DNA of 34,044 nt from Bacteroidota bacterium (lineage in GTDB: Bacteria > Bacteroidota > Bacteroidia > AKYH767-A > 2013-40CM-41-45). The notes below the pieces were generated by a model that had not been told where the DNA came from, made no database searches, and worked only from the letters and a program-made list of their open reading frames with translations. Shown piece after piece: positions 3,856-34,044 of the stretch. The DNA is taken from the NCBI GenBank assembly GCA_026391975.1, contig JAPLDB010000063.1:1-34044 (forward strand). The letters run 5' to 3'. The translations under genes and the position numbers were made by a program. The number at the start of each line of letters is the position of its first letter. Position 1 is the first letter of the stretch.

Positions 3856-6800
3856 CACTTTTCAATTCGCGTGACAAATTTTCCGCCGCTGCCTCTGATC
3901 TCCAGGATGTACACAGCCGGCGCCAGAGTGGAAACTGAAAGTTGAATCTCAGGCAATGCCGGTGAATAGGATTCAAAAACGTTTCTTCCGAGCACATCAT
4001 AGAGAATAATTTCCAGGTCTCCATTGTATAGAAAACTTCCTGAAAGTGAAATGGCAAGATCACTGTGCGCTGGATTCGGGAATACTTTTATTGTTCCGAC
4101 TGCGATACCTGCCGCTACTGCCGAGTAAATAAAATTGGTTGTATCTGAATTTACAGAAGAGCATCCATTCAAGTCGGTTTCAATAACGTAATACAATCCA
4201 TTGTGATCAGGCACAAAATAATTTTGAGTTGCTCCCGCAATAATTCCCACGCCGGCTTCATACCACTGGTTTCCTGTTGCTGCACTTGAAAACAAGGTAT
4301 CAAAAGGAGCAACGTCACCGAAGATGACAGGCTGTAGTGGCTGATAATCCACAACCGTAGCTGAGTCGATGCCCTGACAACCGAAACCATCGGTAACAGT
4401 AACAAAGTAAGTTCCTGATGAAACAGTAATGCAGGTAGTTGTATTGCCCGTTGTCCAGAGGTAATTATTAAATCCTGCATTGACACAAACGAGCGTGTCA
4501 TTTCCTGTGCAAACCAAAACGGTTCTGGCGGGGATGATATGTGCATCGGGAACAGGGTGGTTGTTTACTGTCACAGATTGAAAGCCCGTGCATCCGAATG
4601 CATCAGTTACCGTCACACTGTAAACTCCAAGCGAAGCAGCAATGCAATTTACGGTTGATCCATCCGACCATTGGTAGTTTGCAAATCCGGCATCTGCACA
4701 CACCAAAGTATCGCTTCCTGTACAAACCGTAATTGTTCCTGATGGCTGTATGTTTGGTACAGGTGCAGTACGATTGCTGATCGTTACGGTATCAGAGCCC
4801 GTGCATCCGAATGCGTCTGTAACAACAACACTGTAATTTCCTGCAAGAGATGTGATGCAGTTTGTAGTTGTTCCGTTTGACCATACGTAACTTGCAAATC
4901 CTGTAAGAGCACAAATTGTTGTAACACCTCCTGGGCAAACCAAAATTGTTCCTGAAGGTTGTATGTTTGGTACAGGTGCTGTGCGATTGCTGATTGTTAC
5001 GGCATCAGTGCCCGCGCAGCCAAAAGCATCTGTAACGGAAACACTGTAATTTCCTGCCGGAACTGTAATGCAGTTTGTTGTGATTCCATTGGACCATAAG
5101 TAGCTTGCAAATCCTGAAGTTGCGCAAAGCGTTGTATCGGTGCCATTGCAAACAAAAATATTTCCTGAAGGCTGAATGTTGGGAACAGGTGCAATGCGAT
5201 TGCTTATTGTTACGGCATCAGTGCCCGCGCAGCCAAAAGCATCTGTAACGGAGACGCTGTAATTTCCCGCTTGTACTGTAATGCAGTTGGTTGTGATTCC
5301 ATTGGACCATAGATAGCTTGCAAATCCTGCAGTTGCGCAAAGCGTTGTATCGGCGCCATTGCAAACAAAAATATTTCCTGATGGCTGAATGTTGGGAACC
5401 GGCAAGGCATGATTCGTCACTGTATGCACCGTGCTCGTACGGCTGCATCCTTGTGAATTGGTAAGTACCAGAGTGTAGGTACCTGCACCAACGTTAATGC
5501 AGGAGTCGTTGAATGCACCGTTGTTCCAGTTATATGAATAGGGCCCGCTGTTATTACTTGTAAAGGTTGCGCAAAGCGTGACCGTTGAACCTGCACATAC
5601 ATTTGTGCTGCCGGAAATATTTACCAGTGGTGCAACGGGATGCATCTGAATATTAATTGACTCTGTGGACGTACATCCATATGCATCTGTCAAGGTGACT
5701 GTATATGTATTGCTTGCAGTAACGCTGATTGCAGTACTGGTACCACCTGTTGACCAGTTGTATGAACTCACAGGCCGGAAAAGCGAATCGTGAACAGAGA
5801 TCTGAATTGAAGCTCCTTCACAAAAACCATTCGTTGTGTCAAGTACAAAAACCGGATTGTAATTGATCCCACTGTAAACCGTTACACTCTCTGAACCACT
5901 GCAACCAATGCCATCAGTAACAGAAACAGAATATGTACCGGCAGCATTCACTATAATTCCGGAAGAGGTAGCATTTGTAGACCAGAGATACGAACTGAAT
6001 CCTGCATCAGCAGTGAGTGTTGTACTTGTTCCCGGGCAAATGAAAGCAGAATCCTGTGGCTGAATATTCGGAGATGGTGCCGGATGTGTGGTAACTGTAT
6101 GTGATCCCGTTCCCGCAGTGTCGCAACCGAAGCGATTGGTAATGGAAACTGAATACGTTCCTCCCAACGCATATATACAGGAACCCGTAAACGCACCGGC
6201 ATTCCATGAAAATGTATAGGGCCCTGAACCATTGTCGGTGTAAGCAGCGCACAATTGAACAGAATCTCCTGTACAAACTGCAGTGGCCCCTGTGATGTTT
6301 GGTACCGGAGCAATAGGCTGCAATTGAACAGTAATAGAATCAACGGTAGGACAACCGTACTGATCGACGAATGTTGTTACAAATGTTCCGCTCGTGGTTG
6401 GAAAAACAAATGGACCTGTTTCTCCTGTAGCCCAGCTAACTCCCCATACAGACTGAAATGCAGAATCGTAAGCATGAATGGAGTAAGAAGATCCTTCACA
6501 TAAACCATTTGGAGCGGTGATTGCAAAAAGAATGTTGTAAGCGACACCACCGGTAATATTTTTGGATGCTGTTGCAGAACATCCCCTGTAATCATATACG
6601 GTAACAGTATAAGTGCCGGCAGTAGTTACATTGATCGTTCTTGTGTGCGCTCCATTGCTCCACACATATTCATACATATTTGCAGGAGCAGAAAGCGTTA
6701 CGGTCTCTCCCGGGCAAAGTAATGTATCGCCATTGGTGATCTGAATGTTCGCTGTGACATTGCAGGTCCGGCAGGCAGAAGAATCATCAACATACTTTGC

Positions 6801-24400: not shown

Positions 24401-25411
24401 ATGTTTAAAATCGACATCCACAACCACATCATCCCCGAGCACATGCCCGACTGGGTAAAGAAGTTCGGCTATGACGGCTTCATTCACCTCGACCACCATA
24501 AAAATTGCGGTGCGCGCATGATGGTGGGAACAAAATTTTTCCGTGAAGTTGAAAGCAATTGCTGGGACCCAACTGTGCGTATGAAGGAATGTGATCACGC
24601 CGGTGTCCACGTGCAGGTGCTGAGTACAATTCCTGTGATGTTCTCTTATTGGGCCAAGCCAAAGGATTGTCTTGAAGTTTCCATGTTTCTCAACGACCAC
24701 ATTGCAGAAGTTGTCAGCCGGTATCCGAAACGTTTTGTCGGACTTGGTACAATTCCCATGCAGGATCCTGAGCTGGCAGTGGGCGAACTGGAACGCTGCA
24801 TGAAGATCGGATTGAAGGGTGTACAGATAGGATCACATGTAGTAGACGACTGGAATTTGGGGTCACCTGCTTTGTTGCCTGTGTTCGAGGCGGCATCAAG
24901 GTTAAATGCATCTGTATTTGTTCATCCCTGGGACATGGCCGGACAGGAACGCATGCAACGGTATTGGTTACCGTGGCTGTTGGGAATGCCTACTGAAACA
25001 GCCTTAGCAATTTGTTCGATGATTTTTGGAGGCGTATTTGAAAAGCTTCCGAAACTTCGTGTCGCATTTGCACATGGCGGAGGAACATTTCCTTCTCTCA
25101 TCGGAAGAATAGAACATGGCTTCGCAAGCCGTCCCGACCTCGTTGCCATTCACAACAATGAAAACCCGCGGTCATACGTAGGCAAATTTTTTATTGACTC
25201 GCTCGTTCATGAACCCAACGTGTTGGATTACCTTGTAAAATTCATGGGCGCGAACAGAATTGCATTGGGAAGTGATTATCCGTTTCCGCTTGGTGAACAG
25301 GTTCCGGGATCATTAATTGAAAGCATGCCTTATGATGACAAGACAAAAGAACTTCTGCTCAGTGGATCTGCACTGGAATGGCTGAATATGGAAAAGAAAT
25401 TTTTTCAATGA
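24401..25411 (+). CDS. nbaD: Amidohydrolase, 2-amino-3-carboxymuconate-6-semialdehyde decarboxylase type
   Basis: 336 residues of the ACMSD group of the amidohydrolase superfamily. It would decarboxylate the product of the upstream dioxygenase to 2-aminomuconate semialdehyde, away from quinolinate and NAD synthesis. The metal ligands are visible: His7 and His9 in IDIHNHI, His175 in VFVHPWD, His225 in VAFAHGGG and Asp292 in IALGSDYPFP. Arg48 in KFFREVE is at the expected substrate-binding position. The segment DPTVRMKECDHAGVHVQVLS is typical of ACMSD. The start codon overlaps no good ribosome site. The stop overlaps the next start (ATGA at 25408-25411). Confidence 0.93.
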   Translation: MFKIDIHNHIIPEHMPDWVKKFGYDGFIHLDHHKNCGARMMVGTKFFREVESNCWDPTVRMKECDHAGVHVQVLSTIPVMFSYWAKPKDCLEVSMFLNDHIAEVVSRYPKRFVGLGTIPMQDPELAVGELERCMKIGLKGVQIGSHVVDDWNLGSPALLPVFEAASRLNASVFVHPWDMAGQERMQRYWLPWLLGMPTETALAICSMIFGGVFEKLPKLRVAFAHGGGTFPSLIGRIEHGFASRPDLVAIHNNENPRSYVGKFFIDSLVHEPNVLDYLVKFMGANRIALGSDYPFPLGEQVPGSLIESMPYDDKTKELLLSGSALEWLNMEKKFFQ

Positions 25412-26145
25412 AGTGTAAATCAATTCTGCTCTTAGCCACTCTTTTCTTTTGGGAGATAGGTTTTTCACAAACTCAGAAGCCCTTTGCCGCAGTAGAGCTT
25501 TTTACCAGCGAAGGATGCAGCACCTGTCCCCCGGCTGAAAAATTATTATCCGATATTCACGCGGACGCTGAAAAAAATCATAAAAATATTTTCTTCCTTG
25601 AATACCACGTGGACTACTGGAACCGCCTGGGGTGGAAGGATCCATACAGCAGTTTCCAGTATACCCTGCGTCAGAAAAATTACACCAGCGTGTTGAATGA
25701 GGAAAGTCTCTATACGCCGATGATGATTGTAAACGGGAAAGAATCTTTTACGGGATCAGATGAAGTAAAAGCAAAGTCTGCAATCGCATCGGCACTCTCA
25801 GAAACAGAAAGTCTTCAGCTAAAAGTAAAAATAGATTCCACCGAAAGAGATACGGTTTTCGTGACCTACCAGTCTTCGAAAGCAGATAAAAATTTCTTTC
25901 TCCGTTTTGCCATAACAGAAGATCAACTTGTTTCGAAAATCGGCAAGGGGGAAAATTCAGGCAGGACCTTAACGCATGATCACGTCGTAAGGGTTTTCTT
26001 TTCAGGGGAAGTGAGTGATGGAAGAGCACAACTAAAAATTCCGCTGAAAAAATTTGTGCCGAATGAAAACTGTGAGCTTATCGCTTTTATTCAGCACAAG
26101 CAGACCATGAAAATACTTGCTGCTGCCAGTGAAACTTTTAACTAG
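25408..26145 (+). CDS. DUF1223 secreted thioredoxin-like protein
   Basis: 245 residues. A signal peptide (residues 1-20, SILLLATLFFWEIGFSQ) precedes a thioredoxin-fold domain with the redox pair Cys37-x-x-Cys40 in FTSEGCSTCPPAEKLL. Family motifs EYHVDYWNRLGWKDPYSS and YTPMMIVNG follow, and a C-terminal beta-rich domain ends the protein. The function of DUF1223 is not established; the CxxC and export suggest thiol redox work in the periplasm. I chose ATG 25408, which gives the signal peptide an M-K start and overlaps the amidohydrolase stop by four bases, over the in-frame ATG 25378 inside the upstream gene. Translational coupling to the tryptophan gene is likely. It converges on the YceI gene. 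Confidence 0.9.
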   Translation: MKCKSILLLATLFFWEIGFSQTQKPFAAVELFTSEGCSTCPPAEKLLSDIHADAEKNHKNIFFLEYHVDYWNRLGWKDPYSSFQYTLRQKNYTSVLNEESLYTPMMIVNGKESFTGSDEVKAKSAIASALSETESLQLKVKIDSTERDTVFVTYQSSKADKNFFLRFAITEDQLVSKIGKGENSGRTLTHDHVVRVFFSGEVSDGRAQLKIPLKKFVPNENCELIAFIQHKQTMKILAAASETFN

Positions 26146-26693
26146 CTCTTGACATAAGGCGCCAGGGTTGCGTCCACATGTATTTCAATGTCTTCAGCAA
26201 TAGTTTGAACGTACAATGCCGGAACCTCAATGTTGAAATCGGCAATATGGATTTTAAAAACAGATTTCAGGATGATCTGTGATCCGCTAACGGTAACTGT
26301 TCCTGTGGCAGTAATTTTCTTTGATACGCCATGCATCATCATCATGCCTGTAACGGTAGCTTTGTAACATCCGTCTTTTGAAAAATCGATCTTCTCATCA
26401 ATTTTTCCTGCAAAGGTGGAGAATGGAAATTTTTCAGATTCCATGTAATTTTCATTGAAGTGCTCCTGCATCAGGGCGGAACTGAAATTGAATGATGTGA
26501 TGGGAACCTTGAACAAAACTTCCTGTGTCGCAACATTCATAACCGGCTTACAGGCATGGTTATGCGCCTCAATATTTTCAATGACAGAGGCCGAAAAGAA
26601 ACTGATATCAGCCTCTTTTGCCATATACACCTGTGCATTTCCGGCTAAGAATGTGGCAATGATGATTGCCGGGATCAACAAATATTTTTTCAT
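26142..26693 (-). CDS. YceI family periplasmic protein
   Basis: 183 residues, with a signal peptide (KKYLLIPAIIIATFLAGNAQ). The lipocalin-like beta-barrel of YceI shows in ISFFSASVIENIEAHN, FSSALMQEHFNENYMESEKF, KDGCYKATVTGMMMMHGVSK and the end VQTIAEDIEIHVDATL. YceI proteins bind polyisoprenoids such as quinone-like lipids and occur near cytochromes. I use ATG 26693 rather than the in-frame 26729, since only the former starts a signal peptide. It is the last gene of the cytochrome-like cluster, 10 bp behind DUF5777. Its stop (CTA on the plus strand, 26142-26144) shares bases with the TAG of the convergent DUF1223 gene at 26143-26145. Confidence 0.93.
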   Translation of the reverse strand: MKKYLLIPAIIIATFLAGNAQVYMAKEADISFFSASVIENIEAHNHACKPVMNVATQEVLFKVPITSFNFSSALMQEHFNENYMESEKFPFSTFAGKIDEKIDFSKDGCYKATVTGMMMMHGVSKKITATGTVTVSGSQIILKSVFKIHIADFNIEVPALYVQTIAEDIEIHVDATLAPYVKS

Positions 26694-26703
26694 AATGATT
26701 AAT

Positions 26704-27588
26704 TTATAATGTGAATACCCTGGATACATTAAATCCTAAACGTATCCCGGCATTATTCCATTTGGTATCAGTATGTGCGAGGAACTGGTTTTCCACCAGT
26801 CCGAATGAATTGATGAAGTGAACCTGAAAAACGTGTCCTCCGGTTTCAATCTCCCACCCAATTCCCATACTGTCGTAATACTTTGCTTTTGAATATTCAT
26901 TGATGCGGTAAGCATATTCAAAAGTAATGGCCATGCGTTTTGTGAATTTAAGTCGTGTTACACATGCCACGCCGTAAGCATCATTTTTATCAGTGATAAG
27001 TTCAACAAGGTTGTAGTGGACAAACCACGGTGCTATCTGGAATGAAAATGCAGGTGAAAATTTTCTTCCGATCATGATTTCATATGCATAAGACCAACGG
27101 TTGGTTTCGGGTTTATATTTATCATAACCCTGAGCTGCTGTATTGTTGTCTTTTAAACCGGTGCGGTAAGCACTTGCAAAGAGGGTAATACTTAGCGGTG
27201 ATCCACCATGGGTTGATTGGCGTAGTAGGCGATACTTCAGAAATCCATCAACCATTTTTTCCACCGAAGTACGACCGATTCCAAACATAAATCTTCCGTC
27301 AGGACTGTACTCCAGGCCAAGCCGGATGTCGACCGGTCCGTCAATCCCCCATGCATTGATAGATCTGCTGTTAAGTGGTCCAAACCGGTGGGAGATTCGG
27401 AAATCAAGCGTGTTCTTGCCAACGGTTTCAAGGGTATGCTGGTCAATAAGACGCGTGGTCTTAAATGTTGCAACAGTAAATTCTTTGACTGGTGCCTGAG
27501 CAGAGTCAAGAAGGTTCCATAAATCCTGCGCATGAAGTGACCTGCATGCCAACAGCATTAATATGAAAAATACAGTTTTCAGTTTCAT
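26704..27588 (-). CDS. DUF5777 family outer-membrane beta-barrel protein
   Basis: 294 residues from ATG 27588 (the in-frame 27654 start would put a hydrophilic stretch ahead of the signal peptide). The signal peptide ends near SLHAQ. The mature part has alternating strands such as TLDFRISHRFGPL, FMFGIGRTSVEKMVDGFLKY and FQIAPWFVHYNLV, ending in the phenylalanine-rich strand IRLGFNVSRVFTL. It matches DUF5777, a Bacteroidota outer-membrane family of unknown role that is often encoded next to cytochrome c-like lipoproteins and YceI, as here. It is placed between cyt-like genes (11 bp upstream) and yceI (10 bp downstream). Confidence 0.9.
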   Translation of the reverse strand: MKLKTVFFILMLLACRSLHAQDLWNLLDSAQAPVKEFTVATFKTTRLIDQHTLETVGKNTLDFRISHRFGPLNSRSINAWGIDGPVDIRLGLEYSPDGRFMFGIGRTSVEKMVDGFLKYRLLRQSTHGGSPLSITLFASAYRTGLKDNNTAAQGYDKYKPETNRWSYAYEIMIGRKFSPAFSFQIAPWFVHYNLVELITDKNDAYGVACVTRLKFTKRMAITFEYAYRINEYSKAKYYDSMGIGWEIETGGHVFQVHFINSFGLVENQFLAHTDTKWNNAGIRLGFNVSRVFTL

Positions 27589-27599
27589 GTGTGTTTTTC

Positions 27600-27983
27600 T
27601 CAATTGTTTATATAGCCGTGATTGATCCACGATTCTATTTTTTGGATAGAGCAATCGTCCAACTTGCCGCCTCCTTTTGGCATTGCCCTTGCACTCGGGT
27701 CATGGATGATGCTTTTCAGGAAAATATCGTTTGGCGATATCTGAGCAGTTACGCCTGCATAAGTTTCCAGACCCATACCACTGTCAGAGTTGTCAGTATT
27801 GTGACAGGCATTATCGCTGATCCCACAGCCGGAAGTCAGAATAGGTATTATATCATTTGCGTAAGAAATTGTTACACTGGTCGTATCGCATGCCGTTCCT
27901 ATATTTGGATGAATTTCTTCCTGGTTGTCATAGTAACACCCCGTAAAAACTCCAATCGCCGCAAGGAAAAAATATTTTCTCAT
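27600..27983 (-). CDS. Cytochrome c-like lipoprotein with CX6CH motif
   Basis: 127 residues. A lipoprotein signal ends at Cys16 (GVFTGC). A cytochrome c-like domain follows: the candidate heme-binding stretch is Cys53...Cys60-His61 (TSGCGISDNACHN), with six rather than two residues between the cysteines, and a possible axial Met101 in ARAMPKGGGKL. The end helix IESWINHGYINN is typical of the small c-type cytochrome group. Two extra cysteines (32 and 111) could form a disulfide. It is 8 bp after the second cytochrome-like lipoprotein gene and 11 bp before DUF5777. Whether heme is attached is uncertain, given the expanded spacing. Confidence 0.83.
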   Translation of the reverse strand: MRKYFFLAAIGVFTGCYYDNQEEIHPNIGTACDTTSVTISYANDIIPILTSGCGISDNACHNTDNSDSGMGLETYAGVTAQISPNDIFLKSIIHDPSARAMPKGGGKLDDCSIQKIESWINHGYINN

Positions 27984-27991
27984 GGTGTATA

Positions 27992-28354
27992 TTAATTGTT
28001 GAGCGCCCCCTGTTCAATCCAAACGTAAATCTGCTGAATCTGTTTGCTGGTAAGTGAAGGTGATGATGCGGGAGGCATGATGGCTTCTCCTCCTCCTTTA
28101 AGTGAATTGTATAATTTGCTGCCATGGGCATTGTATGATTTTACAGAACCATTGGCGATTACATTATCATATCCAATGAGCGAAAATTGCTCGTTTCCAT
28201 CGTGGCATCCACTCATGGTGCAATTCCCTGAAAGTATCGACTGAATCTCTGTACTGAAATGCACTTCCGGGACATTTGTTAGATCCGGTTCATGCCGGCA
28301 TGAAAGCAGCATCGAAATTGTGGCCAAGCAGAGAGCGAATATTAATCTGGTCAT
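27992..28354 (-). CDS. Cytochrome c-like lipoprotein with CX4CH motif
   Basis: 120 residues. The lipobox is SMLLSC with Cys19 as the lipidation site. The body is a cytochrome c-like domain: VHFSTEIQSILSGNC, then Cys45-x4-Cys50-His51 in NCTMSGCHDG, then GGEAIMPP with Met93 as a possible axial ligand, and the closing helix SKQIQQIYVWIEQGALNN. It is a paralogue-like sister of the downstream protein (same order of elements, same final NN). The cluster runs on with 8-11 bp gaps. A choice-of-anchor V gene precedes it by 32 bp. Confidence 0.85.
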   Translation of the reverse strand: MTRLIFALCLATISMLLSCRHEPDLTNVPEVHFSTEIQSILSGNCTMSGCHDGNEQFSLIGYDNVIANGSVKSYNAHGSKLYNSLKGGGEAIMPPASSPSLTSKQIQQIYVWIEQGALNN

Positions 28355-28366
28355 AAATGAACATGG

Positions 28367-28389
28367 TAAATAAGCCGGAAACTTATTTA
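28367..28389 (-). terminator. Small AT-rich hairpin between the anchor-V gene and the cytochrome-like genes
   Basis: TAAATAAG (28367-28374) and CTTATTTA (28382-28389) form an 8-bp perfect stem with a 7-nt loop. It overlaps the stop codon of the upstream gene. No T-run follows on the minus strand, so it may reduce rather than stop read-through into the four downstream genes. Confidence 0.35.
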
Positions 28390-29214
28390 TTGAATTACTA
28401 TTTTCTTAGAAAATTTATGATCCCCGTTTTCTGCAGAAAGATAATAGATGCCTTTTGCATATGATGAAACGTTCAATTGATATTCACGGTTACCGGAAAC
28501 AGTTAATTCCTGTACTTGTTTTCCTGAAAGATCGAAGACCTTATACATTACAGGATTCGATACTGAATGGTCTGATGCAATGTTCAATACATCAATGGCA
28601 GGATTCGGGTACACTGAAAATAATTGTTGTTCTCCCAGCTCTGCTGTTGAAGCTCCTGTCATAGGTGTAATCAATTGAGAAGCATTATAGACATAGTCCA
28701 GATTCTCATTGCCATTGTTATTTGCAGCTACCCCGCAGTAATACATTGTAACATTTCCAATGTTTGTTGAAGGGGCCGTCCAATGGAATGTGAAAGACAT
28801 TGAATTGGCATTGGCGCCACCATTCAGGGTATGTACTATATTATTCCGGACAACACTACTTACTGTTTTTGTTTTGATCTGAGTATGATAGTCTGCAGAA
28901 GTCAGCGTTCCGGCATTGCTATTCGATGTTGTCAATGCCTCAAGACCAATTCCAAACAAGCTGTTACCGGTTCTGCTTACAGTTGCAGTTACATTATAGG
29001 TATATCCGGGTTCATATTGCCAGTTCACCATATCGGATGTCAGAACAACAGAACCGCCACCTGAATTGAGCGCATAAGAACTGTGACAATTGTTGCATTT
29101 ATTTTCACCGGGAGAGCCGGTGTATCCGGCTTTACCGTTATCGCTCAGCATTTCGCTGGTGAAAACAATAAAAACAGATGAGAGCAGGAGCAGGAAAATG
29201 AATTTTGATGACAT
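28387..29214 (-). CDS. Choice-of-anchor V protein with CxxCH and T9SS type A CTD
   Basis: 275 residues. A signal peptide (FIFLLLLSSVFIVFTS) is followed by the anchor-V (Reeler-like) domain opening GYTGSPGENKCNNCHSSYA, containing Cys40-x-x-Cys43-His44, a canonical heme c attachment motif. Beta-sandwich strands follow (YNVTATVSRTGNSLFGIGLEAL, MSFTFHWTAPSTNIGNVTMYYCG). The end (QLFSVYPNPAIDVLNIASD, VFDLSGKQVQEL, YAKGIYYLS) is a type A T9SS sorting domain. It should therefore reach the surface with a possible heme or metal. It leads the minus-strand cluster by 32 bp and may be its first gene. A weak CACCTTTG box lies on the minus strand at 29263-29270. Confidence 0.9.
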   Translation of the reverse strand: MSSKFIFLLLLSSVFIVFTSEMLSDNGKAGYTGSPGENKCNNCHSSYALNSGGGSVVLTSDMVNWQYEPGYTYNVTATVSRTGNSLFGIGLEALTTSNSNAGTLTSADYHTQIKTKTVSSVVRNNIVHTLNGGANANSMSFTFHWTAPSTNIGNVTMYYCGVAANNNGNENLDYVYNASQLITPMTGASTAELGEQQLFSVYPNPAIDVLNIASDHSVSNPVMYKVFDLSGKQVQELTVSGNREYQLNVSSYAKGIYYLSAENGDHKFSKKIVIQ

Positions 29215-29500: not shown

Positions 29501-30178
29501 ATGAAAATTCTTGTAGTAGAAGACGAAAAAGATTTATTGAATGCCATGGTGGACTATCTTCACCAAAGTGGTATGACCTGTGAAAAAGCTTCAACACTTG
29601 AAGAAGCACTGGAGCGCATAGACCTCTATGACTACGATGGAATCATCCTCGACATCGGCTTGCCTGATGGCAGCGGATTACGGGTGATCGAGGAAATGAA
29701 AAAGAAAAACCACCAGACAGGTATATTGATTGTATCCGCAAAAAATTCTCTCGACGACAGGCTTTCAGGTTTGAACATCGGTGCAGATGATTATATCATC
29801 AAACCATTTCACATGCCGGAGCTTGTTGCAAGGATCAAGTCTGTTTTTCGCAGAAGATCATTCCAGGGTAAAAAGGAATTGGTGATGAATGAGTTGCGGG
29901 TCATTCCTGATGAGATGATGTTTTTTGTGAATGACAAACAGGTGCCACTTACAAAGACCGAACATGATCTGCTGATGTTCCTGCTCAGCAATTCCAATAA
30001 AGTACTTACCAAAGAGTCAATCGCAGAGCATTTGTGGGGCGACCATGCCGACATGGCTGATTCATTTGATTTTATTTATAGTCACATCAAAAACCTCCGC
30101 AAAAAGATCATTGATCATGGCGGGCGCGATTACGTCAAATCCGTTTACGGAGTCGGATACAAATTTCATAGTGAATGA
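29501..30178 (+). CDS. OmpR family response regulator
   Basis: 225 residues. The receiver domain (1-115) has the phosphoacceptor Asp51 in GIILDIGLPDGSG, the acid pocket EDE (7-9), and the conserved Lys101 in YIIKPFHMPEL. The winged-helix DNA-binding domain (about 125-222) has LTKTEHDLLMFLLSNSNKVLTKESI, HIKNLRKKI and the end wing YVKSVYGVGYKF. It is a transcriptional regulator. The kinase start overlaps its stop codon (ATGA at 30175-30178), so the two are translated together. The targets are unknown; the genes on both sides code for Cys/His anchor-V surface proteins. Confidence 0.96.
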   Translation: MKILVVEDEKDLLNAMVDYLHQSGMTCEKASTLEEALERIDLYDYDGIILDIGLPDGSGLRVIEEMKKKNHQTGILIVSAKNSLDDRLSGLNIGADDYIIKPFHMPELVARIKSVFRRRSFQGKKELVMNELRVIPDEMMFFVNDKQVPLTKTEHDLLMFLLSNSNKVLTKESIAEHLWGDHADMADSFDFIYSHIKNLRKKIIDHGGRDYVKSVYGVGYKFHSE

Positions 30179-31458
30179 AGTTACTGAATGTAACCAACCG
30201 CTATTACATCATCATCGCTGTTGCATTGATGCTGATTGGTTGCGGCTTTCTCACCTACAGGCTGTTTTATCTTTTTGATAAAGAGATCACCGATCACATG
30301 CTTTATGAAAAGCAGATCATTGATCAGCAGTTGTATGAAGAGAAACAGCTTCAGCATATGAATTTTAAATTCGGTGACCACATCGAAGTTCAGCCTATAG
30401 AAAAGTTTACTTCATTCCGCATTCACATGCGGGACACAGAAATGTATGATGCATTTGAAAAGGGTGTCGTGGCATTCCGAATACTTTCCTATGAGCAGCA
30501 AATAGACAGCTCAGGCTATCGTATTAAAATAAGAAGAAGGCTTACTGAAAATAAGGACGTCATGTATGGCGTTCTCGTTGCCGTTGCGCTGATCAGTTTA
30601 AATATGATCATTTCTTTTTATTTTCTCAACAGATGGTTCTCCATAAAAATATGGGCGCCTTTCTATGCTGCTTTGAAGCTGTTGAAGAATTTTGATTTGC
30701 GTAAGGAAGGTAAGCCACAGTTCAGAACCAGCGCTATCGAAGAGTTCAATAGAATGAATGAAGAATTGCGGAAACTCACGGATAAGGTTTACAATGATTA
30801 CCGCAACCTCAAGGAGTTCACTGAGAACATGTCTCATGAGACCCAGACTCCACTTGCCATCATTCACTCACGGCTGGATGTGCTTATGCAATCAGAAAAT
30901 TTAACCGAGCAACAACAGGAGCAGATTCGCACTACGCTCGATGCCGTGAACAGGTTGTCAAAAATGAACAAGGGCCTCACGCTGATTGCCAAGATTGACA
31001 ACAATCAGTTTGCTGATGAACATAGCGTAGTATTGAGTGAAGTCATCGAAAAGCACCTTTCACAACTTGATATTTTTATTGAAGGAAAAGGAATCCGTGT
31101 GATCAAGAGCCTCAATCCAAGAATGCGGGTGCGTTTGAATCCCCAACTTGTGGATATACTCCTGACCAATCTGCTCAGCAATGCCATCAAATACAATGAA
31201 GAAAATGGTGTGCTGAAGATCAGTATGGATGATCATGGATTTGCGATTTCAAATTCCGGTAGTACGCCGAGCCTGTCTTCGGAACAAATCTTCGAACGAT
31301 TCAGGCGCGGAGAAGATAAAATTGACTCAACAGGATTGGGAATGGCCATTGTAAAAAAGATCTGCGATCACTCCTCTTGCCAGATCGCACATAGTTATGC
31401 AGATAAGATGCACCTCTTTACCGTCAGGATCAATCCTGCCAAGGTGTCTTTCGTCTAA
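30175..31458 (+). CDS. Sensor histidine kinase
   Basis: 427 residues. Two transmembrane segments (about 10-34, IIIAVALMLIGCGFLTYRLF, and 132-155, VLVAVALISLNMIISFYFL) enclose a roughly 95-residue periplasmic sensor domain with no recognisable ligand motif. After a linker comes the dimerisation helix with the phosphoacceptor His221 in ENMSHETQTPLAIIHSRLD. The ATP-binding domain has the N box LLTNLLSNAIKYNEE, a weak G1 (AISNSGS instead of DxGxG), the F box IFERFRRG, and the G2 box TGLGMAIVKKIC. It partners the overlapping response regulator. Confidence 0.95.
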   Translation: MKLLNVTNRYYIIIAVALMLIGCGFLTYRLFYLFDKEITDHMLYEKQIIDQQLYEEKQLQHMNFKFGDHIEVQPIEKFTSFRIHMRDTEMYDAFEKGVVAFRILSYEQQIDSSGYRIKIRRRLTENKDVMYGVLVAVALISLNMIISFYFLNRWFSIKIWAPFYAALKLLKNFDLRKEGKPQFRTSAIEEFNRMNEELRKLTDKVYNDYRNLKEFTENMSHETQTPLAIIHSRLDVLMQSENLTEQQQEQIRTTLDAVNRLSKMNKGLTLIAKIDNNQFADEHSVVLSEVIEKHLSQLDIFIEGKGIRVIKSLNPRMRVRLNPQLVDILLTNLLSNAIKYNEENGVLKISMDDHGFAISNSGSTPSLSSEQIFERFRRGEDKIDSTGLGMAIVKKICDHSSCQIAHSYADKMHLFTVRINPAKVSFV

Positions 31459-31724: not shown

Positions 31725-34044
31725 ATGAAAAAAAGTACTTTGATTTTCACCCTCTTCACCACAATTGTATTTGCTATTTTATATAGCGCAATGAACAATG
31801 AGGTAAACTCTAAGCCCGACGGTTCTCCATCTGCAAGAACCGGTTCTCCGGGTGATGGTGCAACCTGTCAAAGTTCTTCTTGTCATGCCGGGCCTACTCC
31901 TGCAACCATGGCGGGCTGGATCACTTCCAATATTCCGGGAGCTGGATATACATCCGGTACCACCTATACAATTACGGCCACGATCACAAGACCGGGGCAT
32001 ACAAGATGGGGCTTTGAAATTTCTCCACAGAATGCTTCAGGAGCGTTACTGGGAACATTGATCGCTACGAATACAACACAAACCAAACTCATCACTTCAG
32101 GGAAATATATTACCCATACTTCAGCCGGAAATTCGGGCAGCAATCCAAAGTCCTGGACGTTTAACTGGACCGCTCCTGCAGCAGGTACAGGGAATGTAAC
32201 ATTCTATGGAGCCTTTCTTGCTGCTGATAATGATGGAAGTGAGAGCGGCGATACAACTTTTGTTTCAACCCTATTGGTCAGCGAACTTTCTTGTGCTACA
32301 CCTGCTCAGCCGGCTGCGATTACTGGAAACACAACTGTTTGCCCGGGTGCATCACAAACATATTCCATCAGCCCCGTATCCGGAGCAACAAGTTATACCT
32401 GGACATTGCCGGGAGGATGGAGCGGATCATCAACCACAACTTCTATCAACACAACTGCCGGAGCATCTTCGGGAACTCTTTCAGTAGTTGCTGTAAATGC
32501 TTGTGGCAGCAGTACGGCCCGCACACTGGCAGTTACTGTTGACGGACTTGCAGTATCTGCAGCATCAACCAATGTAAGCTGCAATGGTGCGAATAATGGA
32601 ACTGCAACAACAACGCCTTCTTCAGGGGTTACGCCTTATACTTATTCATGGTCGCCTGCCGGAGGAACTTCATCAACAGCATCGAACCTTGCTCCCGGAA
32701 CATATACAGTAACTGTGACCGATGGAGCAGGCTGTACAAAAACAGCATCCACCACTATTGCACAACCATCATCTTTATCTCTAACAACTACTTCAAACGC
32801 AGCAGCCTGCGGAAATTCAAATGGCTCAGCAACAGTAAGTGTGATCGGAGGTACATCGGGGTATACCTATTCATGGAATACAACTCCCGTTCAGACAACT
32901 GCTTCTGCTACGAATATTCCTTCCGGAAATTATACCGTAACGGTAACTGATGCACATAGCTGTACGGCAACGGCCAGTGTTTCAGTTACTGGAACTGCAG
33001 GTCCTGCAACTTCAATTTCAAATCAGGTCAATGTAAGTTGCAATGGAGCGGCTACTGGATCTGCCACTGTAACTGTGAATGGCGGTACAGCTCCCTTTGG
33101 TTATGCATGGTCACCGTCAGGCGGAAGTGCTGCAAATGCCACTGGGCTTTCGGCCGGCACCTATACTGTAACAGTGACTGATGCAAACGGATGTGTGACT
33201 TCCTCAAATTGTACCATAACAGAACCATCAGCAATTTCATTGTCTTCATCTTCAACAGATGCAACCTGCGGAAATGCAAATGGATCAACGTCTGTGAATG
33301 CAACCGGTGGAACTTCGGGATATTCCTATTCATGGAATTCAGTACCCGTGCAAACAACAGCAACAGCCACAGGTTTGGTCGCCGGAAATTATACAGTGAC
33401 AGTGACTGATGCCAACGGTTGTACAGCAACAGCAAACTCGACTGTGACTGATGTTGCCGGTCCTGTTGCCACAGCATCAGTAACTGCTGATGTAAATTGT
33501 TTCGGAGGAAGTGACGGAAGCGCCCAAGCAGGAAATAGCGGTGGCACATTGCCTTTTACTTATACCTGGTCGCCTTCAGGCGGAACTGCTGCCAATGCAA
33601 ATAATCTCACTGCAGGAAATTATTCAGTAACGATAACCGATGCCAACGGATGTACAAGCGTTGCAAGTTGCATTGTCATCGAGCCGTTAGAGATCATTCT
33701 TACAACTTCAACAACAAATGCAGGTTGTGGTTTATCAAATGGATCCGCAAGCGTAGTTGCATCAGGTGGAACGGGTGTATTTACATATTCCTGGAATACT
33801 GTTCCTGTGCAAACTACAGCTATAGCCACCGGTGTTCCTGCAGGCGCCTATGTTGTTACAGTGACTGATGGCAATGGATGTTCTGTTACCTCAGGTGCGA
33901 GCGTAAGCAATGCTTCGGGCCCATCTGTTACACTTGCTTCATCTGTTGATGTAACATGCTATGGAGGATCAAATGGAGAAGCAACAGTGAATGTTACCGG
34001 AGGAACAGCGCCTTATACTTATTTATGGTCACCTTCCGGAGGCA
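31725..34044 (+). CDS. Giant SprB-repeat surface protein with choice-of-anchor V head, C-terminus beyond the window
   Basis: The frame from ATG 31725 stays open to the end of the window, 773 codons, so the protein is truncated only by the window edge. A signal sequence (KKSTLIFTLFTTIVFAILYS) precedes an anchor-V (Reeler-like) domain with ARTGSPGDGATC and Cys48-x4-Cys53-His54 (SSSCHAG), closing near YGAFLAADNDGSE. One PKD/Ig-like module (CPGASQTYSISPVSGATSYT) follows, then SprB-like repeats from about residue 275, alternating types with SWSP(A/S)GG and SWNxxPVQTT. The total size and a T9SS sorting domain at the end are predicted but not visible. It probably forms a surface adhesin or filament. 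Confidence 0.9.
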   Translation, partial: MKKSTLIFTLFTTIVFAILYSAMNNEVNSKPDGSPSARTGSPGDGATCQSSSCHAGPTPATMAGWITSNIPGAGYTSGTTYTITATITRPGHTRWGFEISPQNASGALLGTLIATNTTQTKLITSGKYITHTSAGNSGSNPKSWTFNWTAPAAGTGNVTFYGAFLAADNDGSESGDTTFVSTLLVSELSCATPAQPAAITGNTTVCPGASQTYSISPVSGATSYTWTLPGGWSGSSTTTSINTTAGASSGTLSVVAVNACGSSTARTLAVTVDGLAVSAASTNVSCNGANNGTATTTPSSGVTPYTYSWSPAGGTSSTASNLAPGTYTVTVTDGAGCTKTASTTIAQPSSLSLTTTSNAAACGNSNGSATVSVIGGTSGYTYSWNTTPVQTTASATNIPSGNYTVTVTDAHSCTATASVSVTGTAGPATSISNQVNVSCNGAATGSATVTVNGGTAPFGYAWSPSGGSAANATGLSAGTYTVTVTDANGCVTSSNCTITEPSAISLSSSSTDATCGNANGSTSVNATGGTSGYSYSWNSVPVQTTATATGLVAGNYTVTVTDANGCTATANSTVTDVAGPVATASVTADVNCFGGSDGSAQAGNSGGTLPFTYTWSPSGGTAANANNLTAGNYSVTITDANGCTSVASCIVIEPLEIILTTSTTNAGCGLSNGSASVVASGGTGVFTYSWNTVPVQTTAIATGVPAGAYVVTVTDGNGCSVTSGASVSNASGPSVTLASSVDVTCYGGSNGEATVNVTGGTAPYTYLWSPSGG
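32571..34044 (+). repeat. 459-bp two-module repeat array in the SprB-like gene
   Basis: The same codon position of the type A module falls at 32571, 33030, 33489 and 33948, a constant 459 bp (153 codons). Each period holds one A module (VxCxGxxxGxA, WSPxGG) and one B module (CGxxNGSA, SWNxxPVQTT). Three full periods are visible and a fourth begins before the window ends. Confidence 0.9.

Follow-up and report, generated by a model that had tools for sequence, protein, structure and literature searches.

The window (the whole 34,044-nucleotide stretch of DNA that was analysed) carries on its minus strand a run of genes encoding, in order, a choice-of-anchor V protein, a lipoprotein with a CX4CH motif, a lipoprotein with a CX6CH motif, a DUF5777 beta-barrel protein and a YceI-like protein (Table 1). 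A response regulator and a sensor kinase gene, named from their translated sequences, diverge from the run and are likely its regulators. A gene pair of similar size and start lies beside the run in the window and in six of eight other syntenic loci (L060, L062–L065 and L067); it is missing in L066, and L061 stops at a contig end.

Table 1 Features of the window around the cytochrome–DUF5777 run.
Feature	Coordinates	Strand	Remarks
DUF1223/Omp28-like protein	25378..26145	(+)	CSTC thioredoxin-like motif; convergent with the run
YceI-like protein	26142..26729	(-)	Last gene of the run; 57.6 bits, cut-off 23.7
DUF5777 beta-barrel protein	26704..27588	(-)	277 bits; directly downstream of the cytochrome genes
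CX6CH lipoprotein, probable cytochrome	27600..27983	(-)	127 aa; lipobox Cys16, Cys53-GISDNA-Cys60-His61, Met101-Pro102, Trp119; Cys32 and Cys111 a probable disulfide
CX6CH heme-attachment motif CGISDNACH (Cys53-Gly-Ile-Ser-Asp-Asn-Ala-Cys60-His61)	27801..27827	(-)	Sequence and alignment
CX4CH lipoprotein, probable cytochrome	27992..28354	(-)	120 aa; lipobox Cys19, Cys45-TMSG-Cys50-His51, Met93-Pro94, Trp112
CX4CH heme-attachment motif CTMSGCH (Cys45-Thr-Met-Ser-Gly-Cys50-His51)	28202..28222	(-)	Sequence and alignment
Choice-of-anchor V protein	28387..29214	(-)	First gene of the run; CNNCH (CX2CH) and type IX secretion tail
Response regulator and sensor kinase genes	29501..31458	(+)	Divergent, beside the run
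Start of a large protein	31725..34043	(+)	TGSPGDGATCQSSSCH; another expanded motif (CX4CH)

Further observations concern the surroundings of the run. The large protein at 31725–34043 opens as choice-of-anchor V proteins do. Copies of the choice-of-anchor V gene of the run are CX2CH in the window, L060, L062, L063 and L065, whereas that of G007 (L064, 6077–6925, minus strand) has CWTGCH, a CX3CH motif. A gene that starts similarly to the DUF1223/Omp28-like gene occupies the same place in at least L062 and L067; the protein encoded in the window might reduce apocytochrome thiols where CcmH is lacking.

The initial annotation had described expanded heme-type motifs in the two neighbouring lipoproteins, with four and six residues between the cysteines (X4 and X6 below), a downstream Met in each (Met93 and Met101) and a shared closing helix. 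All of this was confirmed, and in both proteins a Pro comes directly after the Met, ahead of a Trp-containing C-terminal helix. The lipoprotein-type cysteines, C19 in the CX4CH protein and C16 in the CX6CH protein, were assigned by eye. When both genes were aligned with X2, X4, X5 and X6 relatives from further loci (21 rows), the lipobox Cys, both heme-type Cys, the His, Met-Pro and Trp were invariant, and the variable part was the distance from one heme-type Cys to the other. Cys, Cys, His, Met-Pro and Trp are likewise kept in 28/28 rows of a CX4-type alignment and in 32/32 rows of an alignment of the CX6 type and its relatives, although invariance of Cys and His is partly built into these alignments because their rows were chosen for carrying C-Xn-CH. 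A profile search made without demanding the motif, which is less biased even though its profile was built from motif-bearing rows, recovered the motif in 153 of 155 distinct domain matches, and the two matches without it belong to one decayed locus. Judged from these comparisons, conservation of the motif in both window proteins is beyond chance.

Resemblance to known cytochrome families is weak at the level of single proteins. Neither window protein reaches any Pfam or NCBIfam cut-off: Cytochrome_CBB3 (PF13442) scores 18 bits with the CX4 protein and 13.1 bits with the CX6 protein against a gathering cut-off of 27, PSCyt1 (PF07635) scores 13.4 bits with the CX6 protein against a cut-off of 22 and has no match listed for the CX4 protein, and NCBIfam LIC11213_lipo (NF047812) gives a weak match, under its curated cut-off for both proteins. 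Cytochrome_CBB3 matches at E ≤0.05 were obtained for 24 of the 28 members of the CX4 alignment and for 16/32 of the CX6-type alignment. Sequence searches of the PDB with single proteins gave nothing useful (one returned no match, the other histones at E 0.45–0.72). With profiles, the CX4 type found FoxE (5e-6), hydrazine synthase alpha (2e-4) and c6 cytochromes (from 0.009), and the CX6 type found c6 cytochromes (0.0012) and hydrazine synthase alpha (0.0024). Where the profile alignments reach the motif, with hydrazine synthase alpha and c6, the gap sits within C-Xn-CH and spans two residues for the CX4-type profile and three for the other; the best-aligned stretch of FoxE begins downstream of the motif.

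AlphaFold models were obtained with pLDDT 85.2 for the CX4 protein (28 sequences) and 79.7 for the CX6 protein (32 sequences). In mature numbering, helices 15–26 and 85–96 flank C27-C32-H33 and M75 in the CX4 model, and helices 26–35 and 95–106 flank C38-C45-H46 and M86 in the CX6 model. Both models thus have the helix before CXnCH, the distal Met and the closing C-terminal helix of class I cytochromes c; the two-residue spacing of CxxCH is replaced by X4 and X6 in the window, and X2 occurs at the same gene position elsewhere. Foldseek alone gave no match with E <0.1 (best E 0.24) and listed P450s and a barnase-type entry at E >8. VIA-align aligned 13 chains to the CX4 model and 185 to the CX6 model, of which 7 and 3 had Z ≥2, and the rows listed at that level (5 and 3 entries) are c-type cytochrome chains without exception: FoxE (Z 8.1 and 7.0), hydrazine synthase alpha (6.6), PccH (6.2) and cytochrome cz (3.4) for the CX4 model, and FoxE (6.3), hydrazine synthase (5.2) and a c555 construct (2.2) for the CX6 model, with Z values (up to 8.1) that are middling by the tool's own note. 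By profile and fold together, the closest solved proteins are FoxE, the cytochrome domain of hydrazine synthase alpha, PccH and cytochrome c6.

The CX6 protein also has a second pair of cysteines, C32 and C111. In 136 of 150 domains either both cysteines of this type occur or neither does; among the 14 discordant domains are cases of a lipobox Cys counted upstream, offsets due to tandem domains or insertions, a tail cut short, a decayed copy and a contig edge. From this co-occurrence C32 and C111 likely form a disulfide and are a better candidate for one than the Cys pair of the motif. The pair is missing from the CX4 window protein, to which the disulfide argument does not extend.

The cytochrome–DUF5777 run was found again in eight of ten relatives of the same genome family (G002 and G004–G010). 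Wherever the CX4CH gene is present at this locus, in the window and in seven relatives, it is X4; G009 is without it there. The gene that follows is X6 in the window, G002, G006, G007 and G008, X5 in G004, G009 and G010, and X2 in G005. Across 151 distinct related domains the spacing is X2 in 59, X3 in 2, X4 in 65, X5 in 12, X6 in 9, X7 in 1 and X9 in 3, and the distal Met before Trp is kept in 149. Gly, Ser, Ala, Thr and Asn make up 80% of the 414 residues in the long intervals, versus 54% of 118 in CX2CH.

From a wider scan with the DUF5777 alignment, the best 80 of 516 loci from named genomes were taken; 71 of these carry a cytochrome domain upstream, on the same strand and at most 3 kb away. 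Among the nine without one, L121, L128, L129 and L137 begin near a contig end and L138 has the domain downstream. The nearest gene upstream of DUF5777 in the 71 loci is X2 in 34, X3 in 2, X4 in 14, X5 in 12, X6 in 5, X7 in 1 and X9 in 3. On the best DUF5777 tree (89 rows, 29/86 inner branches strongly supported), the spacing of the nearest cytochrome, where labelled, changes at least 21 times, with 10 changes between X2 and longer spacing. Within the 32-row clade around the window (30 labelled; 10/29 inner branches strongly supported) there are 10 changes, 4 of them between X2 and longer, and the gene adjoining DUF5777 ranges over X2, X4, X5, X6 and X9 across the 30 labelled loci. One gene further upstream, 20 of 21 cases are X4. 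The suggestion in the initial annotation that the pair records a stepwise widening of the motif was therefore rejected, because the two genes are separate lineages, one almost always X4 and the other, adjacent to DUF5777, labile. In light of these counts, the CX4CH and CX6CH proteins are not oddities of one genome, and spacing in their family extends from 2 to 9 residues.

A second locus in the same genome (contig C193) encodes a protein in which a CX4CH and a CX2CH domain stand in tandem, followed by a CX2CH lipoprotein. For its counterparts in L068 and L070, FixG-like genes are found a few genes away (FixH was checked in L068 only). FixG and FixH are part of the cbb3 oxidase accessory set. 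A plasmid search returned two homologues, in Persicobacter and Emticicia. Decay was observed in two further places: L091 (G006, contig C1) has a second, decayed CX4/CX6/DUF5777 run at about 4300–5850 with DUF5777 split over three frames, and a CX4CH copy at L123 3110–3484 (plus strand) is without the distal Met, reading KLKPAPP versus MP in its relatives, and lies beside an intact copy.

The genome is 98% complete, and its ccm cluster has frames the size of CcmC, CcmE and CcmF, in that order. Cytochrom_C_asm matches only two of its frames, one CcmF-sized (811 aa) and one CcmC-sized; no ResB match, and no second CcmF or CcsBA homologue, was found in it. A CcmF-type protein is thus present, and CcmH was detected in 0/16 genomes, this one included, while positive controls worked. 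The CPSKY motif occurs in the CcmE of this genome and in 15/15 CcmE found across the 16 genomes. The available part of PMC3601427 indicates that about one-third of bacteria with Cys-type CcmE retain CcmH; CcmH absence is usual but not universal in System I*. From its gene content, the maturation system of this genome appears to be System I*-like, with a single CcmF, a Cys-type (CPSKY) CcmE and apparently without CcmH, and the same machine presumably also serves the CX2CH proteins of the genome. In a phylum sample of 198 genomes, CcmE was found in 134 and CcmH in 6 at E ≤0.001, 1 of them above its cut-off. CPSKY was present in 29/30 CcmE loci read, the remaining one being missed by the pattern. 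Four weak CcmH matches in Bacteroidota (L191–L194) are zinc-ribbon-led proteins with two Cys-rich segments.

We consider it rather likely that the window proteins are monoheme class I lipoprotein cytochromes c whose motif spacing is labile, and that they are matured by a System I* tolerant of such variation. Both would be membrane-anchored, with C50-H51 and C60-H61 holding heme in the usual way and the conserved Met (M93, M101) as its sixth ligand. The first Cys (C45, C53) would reach the other vinyl group over a flexible bulge of four or six residues instead of two. The one CcmF of the genome, acting alongside a Cys-type CcmE and with CcmH apparently missing, would read the C-H pair and a nearby Cys rather than a rigid CxxCH, and on this proposal the length of the bulge would be free to drift (2 to 9) because recognition does not depend on it. 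With the DUF5777 barrel, the YceI protein and the secreted CxxCH protein as partners, the two proteins probably take part in electron relay at the outer membrane.

The initial annotation had offered two explanations, a specialised maturation route or proteins that kept the fold but bind something else. The latter would mean that heme was lost from the long-motif proteins, the Cys pair serving as a structural disulfide or a metal site. The departure of the motif from CxxCH is in its favour, as is the lack of any other Cys pair in the mature part of the CX4 window protein. We nevertheless find heme loss quite improbable: Cys-Cys-His-Met-Trp is retained in CX2CH relatives at the same gene position, the DUF5777-adjacent gene being X2 in some loci and longer in others; the distal Met is about as strict in long-motif members (90/92) as in CX2CH members (59/59); and C32/C111 offers the CX6 type a better disulfide. 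As to a specialised route, no second lyase was found in the genome, and its machinery is unusual only in having no CcmH match and a Cys-type CcmE. A dedicated, unrecognised lyase or adaptor for long motifs, like the machines for CX15CH and CXXCK, which need dedicated enzymes according to the portions available of PMC10663686 and PMC7096707, could be a non-homologous adaptor or a gene missing from the draft. Against it stand the one CcmF-sized and one CcmC-sized frame, the lack of ResB here and its detection only in G004 among 12 genomes searched, and the statement in the available text of PMC7096707 that maturation is flexible where more than two residues separate the Cys, and we regard it as decidedly unlikely.

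A different possibility is that heme is attached but, in long-motif members, bonded only by the Cys of the C-H pair, the first Cys being free or reversibly bonded and its distance irrelevant. Such single-thioether attachment would explain how a genome with one CcmF-type protein copes with X2 to X9. If the first Cys were dispensable, however, it would be expected to drift, and it is hardly ever gone, the full motif being present in all matches outside the decayed locus; members without it may have been under-counted by a profile made from motif-bearing rows. We consider this unlikely and prefer the reading in which both Cys of a spacing-tolerant motif would bond heme.

Beyond the window, we think it possible, if on balance somewhat doubtful, that the CcmF of CcmH-less System I* is a spacing-agnostic synthase, accepting Cys-His and any Cys 2–9 residues upstream, and that in Bacteroidota it freed the motif of orthologous cytochromes to change length repeatedly, a change almost absent in sampled CcsBA genomes. 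The comparison was made between 19 System I*-type genomes (CcmE match, no CcmH match), hand-picked among those with an A3 match and with CPSKY read in three (G039, G109 and G208), and 14 CcsBA-type Bacteroidota genomes with an A3 match, no CcmE match and one or two Cytochrom_C_asm frames of 1053–1114 aa, this frame length suggesting a fused CcsBA. One profile served both groups, and 93 of 94 rows were read (G180:C13:37346-37612 was left out). Long motifs were found in 29/59 domains of System I*-type and 1/34 of CcsBA-type genomes (Fisher 1.5e-6), or in 16/19 versus 1/14 genomes (Fisher 1.3e-5). Many CcsBA-type rows are large multidomain proteins, so the contrast was redone on frames <200 aa, with 14/25 versus 1/18 (p 0.00085). 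These values must be interpreted with caution because lineage confounds the contrast (11/14 CcsBA-type genomes are one family) and domains within a genome are non-independent. The tree, with few columns and many open forks, yields only three supported independent pairs and no significant result. Three of the 19 System I*-type genomes have no long motif, and G104 is a counter-example, having a CX4CH domain with a CcsBA-type frame only. By these counts, the association of long motifs with System I* is a lead, not proof.

In the open-licence PMC literature we found no mention of CX5CH, CX6CH or CX7CH (CX9CH gave one chance match in an unrelated paper), none of DUF5777, and no noncanonical-motif or specificity study that counts Bacteroidetes. 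In the part available, one survey counted cytochromes by CX2-4CH. Counting by CxxCH, or by CX2-4CH as in that survey, would miss probable Bacteroidota cytochromes. The family is large, its spacing drifts from one corresponding gene to another, and the genome holds one CcmF-type protein; natural substrates a few residues apart could therefore serve to test how CcmF recognises its motif.

Expanded motifs ending in CH are known from other systems. Tetraheme cytochrome c3, a multiheme protein of a different fold whose usual source is Desulfovibrio, shares CX4CH with the window family, in which X2 to X9 occur in one monoheme family. Heme attachment at CX4CH in tetraheme cytochrome c3, which has two such sites, is described in the accessible part of PMC10454114, and that of PMC3601427 assigns System I* to Desulfovibrio. 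MccA/SirA-type sulfite reductases (CX15CH) resemble the window proteins in an expanded motif ending in CH; in the sources as available they combine very long spacing with a dedicated lyase, and these sources treat CX15CH and CXXCK as very rare and dependent on dedicated enzymes (PMC10663686, PMC7096707), whereas no such lyase was found here and the spacing is shorter and variable. With System I* this genome shares a CPSKY CcmE, a CcmF-type protein and the lack of a CcmH match. The lineages listed for System I* in the available part of PMC3601427 are archaea, delta-proteobacteria, Chloroflexi and Firmicutes, without Bacteroidota, whereas here a System I*-like gene content appears in most sampled Bacteroidota (CcmE in 134/198).
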